Assembly: GCF_001672295.1 (NCBI RefSeq)
Contig: NZ_JXMS01000021.1
Coordinates: 1-61,216, forward strand
Direction of reading: 5' to 3'
DNA from: Halodesulfovibrio spirochaetisodalis
GTDB taxonomy: Bacteria; Desulfobacterota; Desulfovibrionia; Desulfovibrionales; Desulfovibrionaceae
DNA length: 61,216 nucleotides
Position 1 is the first letter of the stretch. The number at the start of each line of letters is the position of its first letter. Position numbers and translations under genes: made by a program. Positions 3,038 through 30,658 of this stretch are shown here, piece by piece. The notes beneath the pieces are model-generated. The model was not told the DNA's origin. It did no database searches and worked only from the letters and a program-made list of their open reading frames with translations.

Positions 3038-3123
3038 TGGTGCCCAGGGGGAGACTCGAACTCCCACGGGCGTGGCCCACTACCCCCTCAAGATAGCGTG
3101 TCTACCAATTCCACCACCTGGGC
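3038..3123 (-). tRNA. tRNA-Leu (GAG), copy 1
   Basis: An 86-nt class II tRNA with 3' CCA encoded. The acceptor stem is GCCCAGG/CCTGGGC with discriminator A. The anticodon stem is CTATC/GGTAG and the 7-nt loop holds GAG at positions 34-36. A long variable arm and the T-arm GTTCGAG are visible. It reads CUC/CUU leucine codons. Identical copies lie at 12822-12907 and 15721-15806, all in the same orientation. Confidence 0.97.
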
Positions 3124-3221: not shown

Positions 3222-3371
3222 GCCTTTTTTGCATTTTTTTTCAGAAAGTTTCCCTGCAAAGAAAATATCATGGCTCGAACTACCTGTAGGTGAGTTAGTA
3301 TGTACCGTGTTTTTTCGCCCCCCGGAAAGAGCACCAGTGAAATATCACCACACCAAGTAGGAGAAATCGTT

Positions 3372-3872
3372 ATGAAACTGGTACGCATTTTTGCAATCAC
3401 AGCCGTAATCATGAGTCTTGCAGCATCAGCTTTTGCTATGAAACAGGACATGATGGCGGATAAGCCTATGATGAAGAACGGTATGATTATGATGATGATG
3501 GCACCGGATGGCTCCATTATGCCTATGATGATGAAAGACGGAACAATGGTTCCTATGATGATGAAAGACGGCATGGCAAAGAAAAATATGAAGATGCCGA
3601 TGATGCGGTCAAAATGCAGCATGATGATGATGCCTATGATGATGAAAGACGGCATGATGATGCCTGCTATGAAAGATATGAAAGACGACAAGATGATGAT
3701 GAAGGACATGGACATGGAATGCATGATGGTGCCGGTTATGATGAATAATGGCATGGTCATGATGATGCCTGTGATGATGAAAGATGGCATGATGATGCCG
3801 ATGACCATGAAAGACGGCAAGATGACACCGATGAGCATGCCTATGATGATGAACGGTGGCAAAGTTAAATAG
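3372..3872 (+). CDS. secreted methionine-rich repeat protein
   Basis: A 166-residue protein. The start chosen is ATG 3372, because TAGGAG (3358-3363) lies 8 nt upstream and the product then begins with a clean Sec signal peptide (about 22 residues, ending AFA). The mature part of about 144 residues contains about 61 methionines, arranged in irregular repeats of the form PMMMKDGM. Two cysteines are present (SKCSM and MECMM). It resembles in style the pentapeptide MXKDX repeat proteins of other Proteobacteria, but I cannot assign a family firmly. Met clusters can bind Cu(I) or Ag(I) or scavenge oxidants, so a periplasmic metal-binding or oxidation-buffering role is possible; this is inference. 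The gene stands alone with its own terminator. Confidence 0.85.
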   Translation: MKLVRIFAITAVIMSLAASAFAMKQDMMADKPMMKNGMIMMMMAPDGSIMPMMMKDGTMVPMMMKDGMAKKNMKMPMMRSKCSMMMMPMMMKDGMMMPAMKDMKDDKMMMKDMDMECMMVPVMMNNGMVMMMPVMMKDGMMMPMTMKDGKMTPMSMPMMMNGGKVK

Positions 3873-12821: not shown

Positions 12822-12907
12822 TGGTGCCCAGGGGGAGACTCGAACTCCCACGGGCGTGGCCCACTACCCCCTCAAGATAGCGTGTCTACCAATTCCACCA
12901 CCTGGGC
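12822..12907 (-). tRNA. tRNA-Leu (GAG), copy 2
   Basis: Identical over all 86 nt to the copies at 3038-3123 and 15721-15806. GAG anticodon, encoded CCA, long variable arm. Confidence 0.97.
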
Positions 12908-15720: not shown

Positions 15721-15806
15721 TGGTGCCCAGGGGGAGACTCGAACTCCCACGGGCGTGGCCCACTACCCCCTCAAGATAGCGTGTCTACCAATTCCACCAC
15801 CTGGGC
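15721..15806 (-). tRNA. tRNA-Leu (GAG), copy 3
   Basis: Identical to the copies at 3038-3123 and 12822-12907 over 86 nt, including CCA. The 5' leader matches copy 1 more closely than copy 2 does. Confidence 0.97.
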
Positions 15807-27655: not shown

Positions 27656-28498
27656 TTATGATAAGGGAGTGGAATGTTCCGGTTCTGGAGTTTTAGCAAT
27701 GATGGCAACCTCAACTGAACCGGCTCCTGCCTGCAGCAGCGGGTGTACTGCTTGATGCAAGGTAGCACCTGTGGTGGCGATATCGTCAACAAGAAGAAGA
27801 TGTGCGCCGTGTAATGATCGGGGCAGGCGCGCGGTGAAGGCACCGGAGATGTTCTGCGCACGGTCTTTTTTACGTAAGGTTGCTTGCGGGGTCGTTTCTC
27901 TGGATCTGTACAAAAGTTCCGGCATGAGCGGAGTTTGTATTTTTTGTGCAATAAGTTTTGCGCTGAGCATACTTTGGTTATGCCCGCGCTGGAGCAGGCG
28001 CTTTTCGTGCAATGGAACCGGAACAACTGCGGCTGGAGGATGTGCCGCAGGCTGGTAGATGCTTGTCAGGAGGCGGGCAAGAGTCAGCCCTGCATCCAGC
28101 CTGCCGTGGAATTTGTGCTTAAGAAGCAGTTCGCGCAGTAATCCTTCATAGCCTCCATAAAGCGTGATGCGCGTCCAAGGGGGTGGAGCAATCATGCATG
28201 AGGAGCAGCGAGAAGGGCTGCCAATTGCTTTCGCATAGAGCATGCCGCAGTCAGGACAGTATCCTTGTGTCCGTGGTGCTAGTTGCTTTAAACATGCGGA
28301 GCACAGTTGCGGCGGGCTGCTATGGAAACGTGATGTGCGAGCGGTAGAAAGTTCAGGAGCTGACTCTCCGCTCTCATACAGGGAGCGGAATGAAATTTCG
28401 GTTGCTGGCGAATAAGGCGTAAAGCATGAAACACAGCGGACTTCGTCTATTCCTAGAAAGGTTGCAGTACTGGCCAGCAGTGTCAGGATGCTATGCAT
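27656..28498 (-). CDS. ComF family phosphoribosyltransferase-like protein
   Basis: A 280-residue protein of the ComF family, related to DNA uptake proteins (ComFC/GntX) in other bacteria. The N-terminal part has a double zinc-knuckle-like cysteine set (CVSC, CSACLKQL, YCPDCG, CSSCM). The C-terminal domain is a type I phosphoribosyltransferase with PVPLHEKRLLQRGHNQS and the PRPP motif LLLVDDIATTGATL. It starts 17 nt after the FMN-reductase stop, so it is likely last in the 30658-27656 operon. Natural transformation is not implied by this gene alone. Confidence 0.9.
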   Translation of the reverse strand: MHSILTLLASTATFLGIDEVRCVSCFTPYSPATEISFRSLYESGESAPELSTARTSRFHSSPPQLCSACLKQLAPRTQGYCPDCGMLYAKAIGSPSRCSSCMIAPPPWTRITLYGGYEGLLRELLLKHKFHGRLDAGLTLARLLTSIYQPAAHPPAAVVPVPLHEKRLLQRGHNQSMLSAKLIAQKIQTPLMPELLYRSRETTPQATLRKKDRAQNISGAFTARLPRSLHGAHLLLVDDIATTGATLHQAVHPLLQAGAGSVEVAIIAKTPEPEHSTPLS

Positions 28499-28515: not shown

Positions 28516-29151
28516 CTATTTATATTTAGTAAGAGGCGGAATGCTGCCGGCATACGCCGCTCTGCCGTACTCCAGAATACGCTCAACCGTTGCAGAGTCG
28601 TTTTCCAGTTCCGTAGGCCCGTCTTTGCCATAGATAAGAAGCGGTTCTGCAAGTGAAATATTGAGCGGAGTCAAAAAGTATTTGAGTGTCAGCAGGGAAC
28701 AGTGGAAAAGCTGATCTCCAACAGGGCGTGCCGCCACAAGACAGACGTATGCTTTTCGTGGTGGAAGCGAAAGAATGTACGGATCGCGGTTATGGTGTCT
28801 GAACCAGAAACATTGGCAGCGGTCGATGAATGTTTTGAAGATGGACGGTAAGTGGTAGAAATAAATAGGGGACGTAATGCACAATGCAGGCGCTTCCATG
28901 AGCATGGAATAGAGCACAGAACTGTCATCTTTGCCTTCCTGAACGCACCCCTTGCTGCCCTTTGCAGCGCATGCTTCACAGGCGGTACAGTGGCGGACTG
29001 TATAGTCACGCATGTACTGAGTCTGTGTTTTGCCACCGGCTGCTTCGTACCCTTGGGCAAACAGTTTTGCCGCGTAATCAGAGTTGCCGTTTTTGCGGGC
29101 ACTGCAACCCAGAATTTGAAGAGCGTTTGCAAATGATTGCGGTGCAGGCAT
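28516..29151 (-). CDS. NADPH-dependent FMN reductase / iron-sulfur flavoprotein-like
   Basis: A 211-residue flavodoxin-fold oxidoreductase. The N-terminal flavin phosphate loop is GCSARKNGNSDYAAKLF, and CTACEACAAKGSKGC (about 55-69) is the compact cysteine motif seen in iron-sulfur flavoproteins of anaerobes, which may ligate a 4Fe-4S cluster. SPIYFYHLPSIFKTFIDRCQ is the typical second loop. Ribosome site AAGGAG lies 5 nt before the ATG. The stop of the selenoprotein candidate is only 14 nt upstream, so the two are almost certainly co-transcribed. Confidence 0.9.
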   Translation of the reverse strand: MPAPQSFANALQILGCSARKNGNSDYAAKLFAQGYEAAGGKTQTQYMRDYTVRHCTACEACAAKGSKGCVQEGKDDSSVLYSMLMEAPALCITSPIYFYHLPSIFKTFIDRCQCFWFRHHNRDPYILSLPPRKAYVCLVAARPVGDQLFHCSLLTLKYFLTPLNISLAEPLLIYGKDGPTELENDSATVERILEYGRAAYAGSIPPLTKYK

Positions 29152-29165
29152 GAGAACTCCTTAAG

Positions 29166-29423
29166 CTAATCGGTACGTTTTGAGGCGGTGCGTGTGCACA
29201 CTGCAGAAAGTTCAGTATGGTCGTCTGTCTGAATTTCGCAGTGCCATTCAGGATATCTTTCTACGGCATATTCAAGTGCAACATGGCTTCGCGCAGGAAG
29301 TAAAAAAAGTACCCTGTCTTTCTTCTGAACTCCGAGATAGAAACTTATCTCGACGCCAAGTCCTCAGCATATCTTGCGTAAATCAGCGACAGTGGTGTCG
29401 GTGCTTGCTGTATGTGTAGGCAT
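29166..29423 (-). CDS. candidate selenoprotein, 85 residues with Cys-Sec motif
   Basis: An ORF from ATG 29423 to TAG 29166 of 86 codons, interrupted only by a TGA at 29366-29364. The TGA follows a TGC codon, giving Arg-Lys-Ile-Cys-Sec-Gly-Leu-Gly if decoded as selenocysteine. Eleven nt after the TGA is a hairpin with 7-bp arms CGAGATA/TATCTCG and loop AGTTTC, so the loop starts 18 nt after TGA and has G as second base. These match known bacterial SECIS rules. No ATG, GTG or TTG follows the TGA until near the end, so the later 65 codons are reached only by readthrough. AGGGGG precedes the ATG, and the next gene starts 14 nt after the TAG. After the TGA the product includes VLFLLPARSHVALEYAVERY. 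Family not recognised. A pseudogene is the alternative. Confidence 0.62.
29333..29352 (-). promoter_or_regulatory. SECIS-like hairpin
   Basis: Minus-strand arms 29352-29346 and 29339-29333 pair perfectly (7 bp, plus a U-G pair below). The 6-nt loop is AGTTTC. It starts 11 nt downstream of the in-frame TGA (29366-29364). Bacterial SECIS elements are short stem-loops inside the coding region with a G in the first two loop positions. Confidence 0.5.
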
Positions 29424-29481
29424 GTTACCCCCTGTGTTTCCTAAAGACTGTGTGTAACCGGCAGGTTGCCGCATTACTTTT

Positions 29482-29515
29482 TTTGTTCAGGCACAGCAGG
29501 CTGTGCCTGAACAAG
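29482..29515 (-). terminator. 14-bp hairpin after MBL-fold gene, no T tract
   Basis: Arms GTTCAGGCACAG (29485-29496) and CTGTGCCTGAAC (29501-29512), extended by TT/AA. It starts 8 nt after the stop codon at 29520. A run of A rather than T follows on the minus strand, so it is unlikely to be a classical intrinsic terminator; the downstream selenoprotein gene may be read through. Confidence 0.55.
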
Positions 29516-29519
29516 GACA

Positions 29520-30146
29520 CTATCGTTTGAAATCAGAAAAGTACGGGTTGTTCAACTCTTCATCTTTGACTGATGAGTGAGGGCCGTGTCCTGAATATAC
29601 TACGGTTTCAGGTGGGAGTGCGAAGATTTTTTCTGTGACAGAGCGTTTCAGCACATCAAAATCACCGCCAGGAAGATCGGTACGACCGATTGCGCGGTAG
29701 AATAACAGGTCGCCCACAAAGACAACAGCTGCATCTGCAAAGTAGAAAGAGAGGCTTCCGGCAGAGTGCCCCGGGGTCGCCAGTACCTTACAGTTCAGAT
29801 CCATGAATGTATGTTCCCCTTCGTTGATAGGGGTGAAGCTGAATGCAGGAACTTTCGGGAATCCCCACATACCGCCTTGACCTACCTCGGAATCGAGAAG
29901 AGCTGCATCGCCACTGCTGCCGATAACGACTGCATCAGTTGCTTCTTGCAATGCTTTTACACCGTATAAGTGGTCAAAGTGGAAATGCGTAATGAGGATG
30001 TGCGTGAGCGTGAGTCCTTCTTTTTTGAGAAACTCAACTACGGAATCAGGTTCTCCGCCAGGATCAACTGCAATAGCTTTTCCTTCGTGAAACAGAACAT
30101 AGCAGTTGGTTTCAAGTGGTCCTAATGGAAATGTTTTTACTTGCAT
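29520..30146 (-). CDS. MBL-fold metallo-hydrolase (glyoxalase II-like)
   Basis: A 208-residue metallo-beta-lactamase-fold hydrolase. The metal-binding motif is ITHFHFDHLYG, followed by LATPGHSAGSLSFY (third His), VFVGDLLFYRAIGR (bridging Asp) and YSGHGPHS (last His). Members of this branch hydrolyse thioesters such as S-D-lactoylglutathione, or persulfides; the substrate is unknown here. Its start overlaps the nitroreductase stop as TAATG, so the two are translationally coupled. Confidence 0.92.
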   Translation of the reverse strand: MQVKTFPLGPLETNCYVLFHEGKAIAVDPGGEPDSVVEFLKKEGLTLTHILITHFHFDHLYGVKALQEATDAVVIGSSGDAALLDSEVGQGGMWGFPKVPAFSFTPINEGEHTFMDLNCKVLATPGHSAGSLSFYFADAAVVFVGDLLFYRAIGRTDLPGGDFDVLKRSVTEKIFALPPETVVYSGHGPHSSVKDEELNNPYFSDFKR

Positions 30147-30658
30147 TAAAATGGCTCCAGCATAATATCTGCCAGCGGTTTGCGTGAGGAAGAGCCTTCC
30201 TGCGCAGGTTCGCCGATGGCAATAAATGTAATGAATTCATAATTGGCAGCATCAAGGGAAAGAACATCAAGTACCTGTTCTGCATTATTCATCATTTGTC
30301 CCAGCCAGACAGAACCAAGGCCGAGAGCATGTGCTGCAAGCATAATGTTCTGAATGCAGGCACCGGCAGACTGATGATCTTTAAGCTCATGATACAGGCT
30401 ATTTTTATCGAGAAAAACACCGATCATAAGCGGTGCATTGTTTACGATATGTGAGTAGATCGTGCAATCGGCTAATCCTGCCATACGCGGGTCATCTGTA
30501 TTGATGACAATAAAGCGGAACGGCTGGTTGTTTTTTCCGCTGGGAGCCCAGCGACCCGCTTCCAGCATGGCAGTGATTTCATCACGTGTGATAGTTCGGT
30601 CAGTAAATTTTCGTATGCTGCGACGCTCTTGCAGTGCAGCAAGGACAGGGTTGGACAT
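30146..30658 (-). CDS. nitroreductase family protein
   Basis: A 170-residue FMN-dependent nitroreductase-fold oxidoreductase. The N-terminal RRSIRKFTDRTI binds FMN phosphate, WAPSGKNNQPFRFIVI is the second conserved block, and GLGSVWLGQM the C-terminal FMN contact. Such enzymes reduce nitro groups, quinones or flavins with NAD(P)H. First gene of a probable operon running through MBL hydrolase, selenoprotein candidate, FMN reductase and ComF. Confidence 0.92.
   Translation of the reverse strand: MSNPVLAALQERRSIRKFTDRTITRDEITAMLEAGRWAPSGKNNQPFRFIVINTDDPRMAGLADCTIYSHIVNNAPLMIGVFLDKNSLYHELKDHQSAGACIQNIMLAAHALGLGSVWLGQMMNNAEQVLDVLSLDAANYEFITFIAIGEPAQEGSSSRKPLADIMLEPF

Follow-up and report, generated by a model that had tools for sequence, protein, structure and literature searches.

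The 61,216-nucleotide stretch of contig NZ_JXMS01000021.1 of Halodesulfovibrio spirochaetisodalis analyzed here (the window) carries on its reverse strand a small gene at 29166-29423 that reads from an ATG through 85 codons to a TAG stop and contains a single in-frame TGA as codon 20 (29364-29366), immediately 3' of a TGC as codon 19. Translation and comparison with relatives point to a selenoprotein of 85 residues, with the putative Sec20 embedded in Cys19-Sec20-Gly21. A ribosome-binding site, AGGGGG, is recognizable from the sequence at 29428-29433 on the same strand. Eleven nucleotides 3' of the TGA begins a perfect 7-bp stem (CGAGATA/TATCTCG) with the 6-nt loop AGTTTC (29340-29345), and the resulting hairpin (29333-29352, reverse strand; UGA-to-loop distance, 18 nt) is annotated as a SECIS element from its fold, its conservation, and the published bSECIS limits. 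The TAG stop is followed after 14 nt by the ATG of an FMN reductase gene. An earlier note on this DNA had reported the 86-codon reading frame with one TGA just past a TGC, the hairpin 11 nt beyond it with the same stem length and loop, the good ribosome site, and the short distance to the next gene; all were seen again here, and the composite feature is very probably genuine.

The surrounding genes share the reverse strand. The FMN reductase gene (28516-29151; PF03358, E = 2.4e-12) encodes a flavodoxin-fold protein with a CX2CX2CX7C motif, a possible redox partner of the iron-sulfur flavoprotein type. Upstream lie two conserved neighbors, an MBL-fold hydrolase (29520-30146; PF00753, E = 1.6e-32) and a nitroreductase (30146-30658; PF00881, E = 3.3e-29), and further downstream is a gene (27656-28498) for what we take to be a ComF-like phosphoribosyltransferase. 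Between the MBL and selenoprotein genes we observe a perfect inverted repeat, GTTCAGGCACAGC / GCTGTGCCTGAAC (29485-29512), possibly acting as an attenuator or as a processing site; A residues come next on the operon strand, so it is no ordinary terminator. Elsewhere in the window, three mutually identical tRNA-Leu(GAG) genes of 86 nt are spread across 13 kb (3038-3123, 12822-12907, and 15721-15806, reverse strand), and a forward-strand open reading frame (ORF) of 190 residues (3300-3872), made up largely of methionine-rich repeats (MMMPMMMKDGMM), perhaps encodes a copper-binding protein.

A first protein search covered 59 genomes, counting that of the window, and returned a match in 25. In 24 of these (23 beyond the window) the equivalent codon is TGA; the remaining match, L026, is an unrelated ORF and was dropped. 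The profile built from these 24 TGA relatives (threshold, E ≤ 0.01) matched 169 of 348 Desulfovibrionia genomes, spanning 35 of 59 genera, with eight genomes of genus g43 among those holding the TGA gene. The best match per genome carries TGA in 165 cases and Cys in three (G074, G235, and G238), and in one (G201, E = 0.0082) it is a fragment that was left out of the TGA genome count. Across the phylum, 7 of 395 genomes were matched, six from the organism's own taxonomic family and one dubious (G502, E = 0.006). In addition, a DNA pattern consisting of a Cys codon, TGA, and the hairpin was run on a collection of 84,980 species and found 51 stretches, every one of which reads as this family; because the pattern demands the Cys codon and the hairpin, these matches support the protein and its range rather than the Cys or the hairpin, and it is blind to Cys forms. 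By title, 46 of the stretches are of Desulfovibrionia type and five come from loosely named Proteobacteria or Deltaproteobacteria MAGs. Against viral contigs the pattern gave no matches. As far as these searches reach, the family is seen only in Desulfovibrio-type bacteria.

Class-wide, 201 loci were examined; the Sec column could be aligned in 199, and 181 are distinct. Two loci whose best matches stop short of that column were dropped, L079 from G502 (E = 0.006) and the Cys-type paralogue L177, and L100 and L119 were left out of alignment A3 because contig ends cut their genes. The 181 distinct loci have TGA in 163 cases, TGC in 16, TGT in 2, and nothing else, a distribution to be read with a mild bias toward TGA and Cys codons in mind, as the profile has C in the Sec column and TGA was read as C. 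The residue preceding the column is Cys in 162 of the 163 TGA genes (Gly once) versus 8 of the 18 Cys genes, and the residue that follows in the TGA genes is Gly (144), His (13), Arg (4), Ala (1), or Lys (1). Apart from these positions, the family alignments contain no invariant or near-invariant Cys or His. Among six Halodesulfovibrio sequences, purifying selection acts on the part of the gene 3' of the hairpin: of 15 pairs, the 8 with computable dS give dN/dS of 0.03-0.24, and in the other seven synonymous change is saturated, with dN of 0.13-0.25. Two TGA-gene copies appear to be decaying, L151 (G290), which carries an in-frame TAA, and L178 (G308), which is strongly diverged; both genomes also hold a Cys paralogue.

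Taken alone, the RNA fold that the earlier note had proposed as a check is not significant (67 nt; z = -1.2; equaled by 23 of 200 shuffles), so that one sequence could not prove that the hairpin matters and the case rests on comparison. The limits described for bSECIS elements are a stem of 4-16 bp, a loop of 3-9 nt, G in the first two loop positions, a spacing of 16-37 nt, and an energy of ≤ -7.5 kcal/mol (PMC13188914, section 5). We applied these limits by script, accepting perfect stems only. The window hairpin falls within them (stem of 8, counting an outer G-U pair beyond the 7; loop of 6; spacing of 18 nt; -7.8 kcal/mol), as do 138 of 163 TGA genes versus 0 of 18 Cys genes. When the same 163 genes were synonymously recoded in 100 rounds, a mean of 14.7 and a maximum of 28 passed. 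The 25 TGA genes outside the limits include 11 from genus g37 and several with weak stems; these failing genes, g37 included, may use a looser element. In the original stem register, 6 or 7 of the 7 pairs are kept in 145 of 163 TGA genes versus 1 of 18 Cys genes, and some other TGA genes have a shifted register (e.g., GATGCC-AGTT-GGCATC).

The stem also covaries. Across 24 aligned sequences, 97% of the stem pair cells are standard, and 14 cells show compensatory double changes versus a shuffle mean of 4.3, a count reached in 0 of 500 shuffles; two of five covariation measures are ordinary, as 129 of 500 shuffles have as many pairs changed on both sides and 176 have as many further pair types. 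Within the hairpin, codon choice is likewise skewed. Leu at +10 is encoded by CTC in 144 of 163 genes versus 104 of 774 Leu codons outside the hairpin, Glu at +5 by GAG in all 145 Glu cases versus 481 of 857 outside, and Val at +6 by GTA in 62 of 97 Val cases versus 55 of 776 outside.

The genome encodes the machinery for selenocysteine insertion: selA (E = 2.7e-188), selB (E = 6.1e-120), selC, as a tRNA-Sec with anticodon TCA, and selD, which itself contains an in-frame TGA. At E ≤ 1e-70, selB is found in 284 of 348 Desulfovibrionia genomes, specifically in 153 of the 165 with the TGA gene versus 131 of the 183 without it (Fisher P = 3e-7, only indicative because the genomes are related). The 12 TGA-gene genomes with no selB match are drafts of 30 to 590 contigs. 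Thus, the selenoprotein reading advanced in the earlier note is strongly backed by codon identity at the Sec column, where relatives have TGA or a Cys codon and no other; by a SECIS-type hairpin that lies in the bacterial distance range, is kept with compensatory changes, and falls within the SECIS limits in none of the 18 Cys genes; and by the presence of all four sel genes. These sequence comparisons make it almost certain that SelB and tRNA-Sec, aided by the downstream hairpin, insert selenocysteine at UGA codon 20.

Seventeen of the 18 Cys genes are paralogues that form one family; 14 of them read C-G-L-[VI]-P at the site, and 15 of the 17 genomes concerned also hold the TGA gene (exceptions, G235 and G238). 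Compared by hhalign, the Sec and Cys families match at 98.9% probability (E = 1e-17), and U falls on the conserved Cys; 9 of the 17 paralogues keep just one Cys at this site. The eighteenth Cys gene, L171 (G074), is instead a syntenic orthologue of L168 and L169, with 70-72% DNA identity over long stretches; it has Cys-Pro-Cys for Cys-Sec, with one residue inserted and TGT at the aligned site. In G074, a genome that is 85% complete, selB was not found at E ≤ 1e-70. At the two paralogue loci examined, L183 and L190, the gene directly 5' of the Cys paralogue is presumably the tRNA-modification GTPase MnmE, which hints at a tie between tRNA modification and sulfur or selenium. With a natural Sec form, a Cys paralogue, and a Cys-bearing orthologue at hand, the role of selenium is directly testable.

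The gene neighborhood was scored by tblastn with the window's proteins at loci whose flanks were long enough. The gene immediately downstream at 133 of 162 loci is that of the FMN reductase, which is missing at 29; the MBL gene is upstream at 120 of 160, and the nitroreductase gene is upstream at 90 of 158. The presumed ComF-like gene has a tblastn match downstream at 31 of the 51 DNA-pattern loci, those with short flanks included. A CX2CX2CX4-9C motif is present in 99 of the 133 flavoprotein neighbors, and the full four-Cys motif was not detected in the other 34. In five Solidesulfovibrio-titled loci tblastn found none of the FMN reductase, MBL, and nitroreductase genes, and some further loci likewise gave no match to them. 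The earlier suggestion that the product works together with its redox neighbors is only partly backed, given the frequent company that these genes keep with it and the loci where none of them was found. Just upstream of the selenoprotein gene at another locus (L077, 1961-2344, reverse strand) is an ORF that we take to be DsrE-like.

The family appears to be uncatalogued. No NCBIfam model (June 2026 release) matched four members at E ≤ 10; Pfam gave nothing credible for 50 members (best E = 0.019, with each weak family in one or two members); and PHROGs gave nothing credible for two members (best E = 0.029). Table 1 of a 2026 review lists 119 selenoprotein families with no TusA/SirA-type entry among them (PMC13188914, section 7); table entries that lack an NCBIfam model were set apart by name and motif only. 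The part of the deep-Sep work that deals with new selenoproteins describes nine families, three of them hypothetical (DG, DW, and DF), and these three have NCBIfam accessions in Table 1 (PMC13188914). The 2006 list for D. vulgaris contains eight selenoproteins, with a TusA-like one absent (PMC1794560); the gene check made here covers eight genomes of genus g43 rather than D. vulgaris itself. Two older screens show no such protein in the passages covered (PMC1914089 and PMC1242214). The literature covered consists of open-licence PMC papers, so subscription journals may contain a report of the family that went unseen. A gene caller that halts at UGA easily overlooks small selenoproteins, and here the TGA gene occurs in 165 of 348 genomes of one class, yet has no recognizable entry in the 2026 table.

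AlphaFold2 models, made with Cys in place of Sec, reach a pLDDT of 82.9 and pTM of 0.70 for the window protein and 90.6 and 0.77 for its relative L094. Both show a beta-alpha-beta-alpha-beta-beta order with the Sec position just ahead of helix 1. In TusA proteins, the sulfur-carrying Cys is located just before helix 1. The best Foldseek matches of the L094 model are the YeeE-YeeD/TsuB chains 8j4c and 8k1r (TM by query, 0.76-0.78; E = 1.2e-3 to 3.6e-3), 408-residue chains that presumably match through their YeeD part; SirA-like 3hz7 is next (TM, 0.63), and Escherichia coli TusA (3lvj_C) is sixth (TM, 0.71). For the window model, 3hz7 ranks 4th (TM, 0.64) and 8k1r 36th (TM, 0.66) among weak mixed matches. 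For neither model does a Foldseek match reach E ≤ 0.001, and the top matches include unrelated folds (methyltransferase pieces, SpoVS, Alba, and IF3). A viral fold library yielded nothing useful, and a profile search of solved structures gave a best E of only 0.71.

At the sequence level, the TusA family in Pfam (PF01206) has no match at E ≤ 10 for 50 members. By hhalign, the Sec family aligns to TusA at 9% and 12% and the Cys paralogues at 36%; the 9%/36% comparison drew on 25 TusA sequences, since of the 26 loci taken from the 30 in L284-L313 one was out of frame. The weak alignment of the paralogues places their conserved Cys on the Cys of the TusA CP motif. The CPxP motif of TusA is missing at the active residue, where most Sec forms have C-U-G and 14 of the 17 Cys paralogues have C-G-L-[VI]-P. 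In the ten own-genus genomes, we find one TusA-domain gene each, with a product of about 200 residues and the domain near the N terminus. By sequence, then, the family is not a TusA member, and by predicted fold it is like one; from the models, we consider a TusA-like fold very likely.

Taken together, the observations are in all likelihood best explained as a whole by an apparently uncatalogued selenoprotein with a predicted TusA fold and a tentatively proposed Sec-based mechanism acting on sulfur or selenium. Most likely, the protein would serve as a TusA-like carrier or reductase that handles reactive sulfur (or selenium) through its Sec. In such a cycle, the Sec20 selenolate would take zero-valent sulfur, possibly selenium, from a persulfide, polysulfide, or thiosulfate; Cys19 would then resolve the adduct, so that sulfide departs and a Cys-Sec selenenylsulfide remains; and the flavoprotein encoded next door would supply electrons that restore the Cys-Sec pair. 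The near-invariance of Cys19, seen only alongside Sec, speaks for a cycle that includes a Cys-Sec bond. We hold the handling of sulfur or selenium through a redox cycle as a tentative proposal, a little short of an even chance, and the role of the neighboring flavoprotein as electron donor as a possibility somewhat more doubtful still. To the fuller picture, in which this is the first TusA-fold selenoprotein family and serves Desulfovibrionia as a dedicated Sec carrier for sulfur (or selenium), containing its own resolving Cys and usually paired with a flavoprotein reductase of its own, we would give an even chance.

The Cys-Sec pair could also belong to a plain thiol/selenol oxidoreductase that takes electrons from the flavoprotein and passes them on to disulfides, peroxides, or nitro compounds, transferring neither sulfur nor selenium. 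Most uncharacterized selenoproteins are held to be redox-functional in the 2026 review (PMC13188914, section 7), flavin oxidoreductases are frequent neighbors here, and the bias toward a Cys adjoining Sec (162 of 163 TGA genes versus 8 of 18 Cys genes) would fit such an enzyme. However, the predicted fold is of TusA type, the flavoprotein neighbor is missing at 29 of 162 loci, and the lone site Cys of 9 of the 17 Cys paralogues suits a carrier better than a two-thiol oxidoreductase, so that we regard this explanation as rather unlikely. Less probable by a good measure is a small chaperone that binds a metal or metalloid (e.g., mercury, arsenic, copper, or an iron-sulfur cluster) through Sec and Cys. 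The small size and the adjoining Cys-Sec pair are compatible with it, and at L113 and L103, two of the loci with no match to the three usual neighbors, the gene preceding the Sec gene presumably resembles GDT1/UPF0016 cation transporters, but the alignments offer no other invariant or near-invariant Cys or His, and the commonest neighbors, from an unsystematic scan, are other than metal-resistance genes. For some selenoproteins of this kind, including SaoB and SaoC, the review does suggest metal binding (PMC13188914). Finally, under the standard code the frame terminates at TGA, and one relative (L151) holds a second stop, TAA, but it is very improbable that the gene is simply a 19-residue ORF followed by a separate ORF, a pseudogene, or a chance reading frame, since, of 181 distinct relatives, 163 have TGA at this codon and the rest a Cys codon, with TAA and TAG absent there, and since the hairpin is coupled to TGA, codon choice within it included, and selection acts 3' of the TGA; the pseudogene, chance-ORF, and two-gene readings are rejected on these grounds.

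If the proposed Sec-based carrier is right, Sec in a TusA-type fold would tie selenium to the intracellular sulfur transfer of sulfate reducers, and, were the carrier a dedicated one, selenium chemistry would serve their sulfur trafficking directly. Adjacent Cys and Sec residues are found in several selenoproteins of Table 1, namely, SaoL, SaoC, SaoB, MbdU, KCU-star, and HgcA (PMC13188914), which share this feature with the window family but differ from it by name and model. Iron-sulfur flavoproteins (Isf) have a compact CX2CX2CX5-7C motif (PMC3164229), and the neighboring gene resembles them in its FMN reductase family match and its compact CX2CX2CX7C motif; this likeness concerns the neighbor rather than the selenoprotein, and 34 of the 133 copies have no full motif. 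YedF, which combines TusA-like and DsrE-like domains, has been proposed as a selenium-related redox protein (PMC5322559) and likewise has a TusA-type domain tied to selenium users, but its motif is the Cys-based CPxP with no Sec, whereas the window protein is a single domain unseen by the TusA profile. The closest comparison is with the TusA/SirA-like carriers (PF01206), including YeeD/TsuB: the predicted fold and the length are the same, and the chalcogen residue likewise sits right before helix 1, past a D-x-R motif, but in those carriers it is Cys within Cys-Pro-x-Pro, and in the window family it is, by our reading, Sec within Cys-Sec-Gly.
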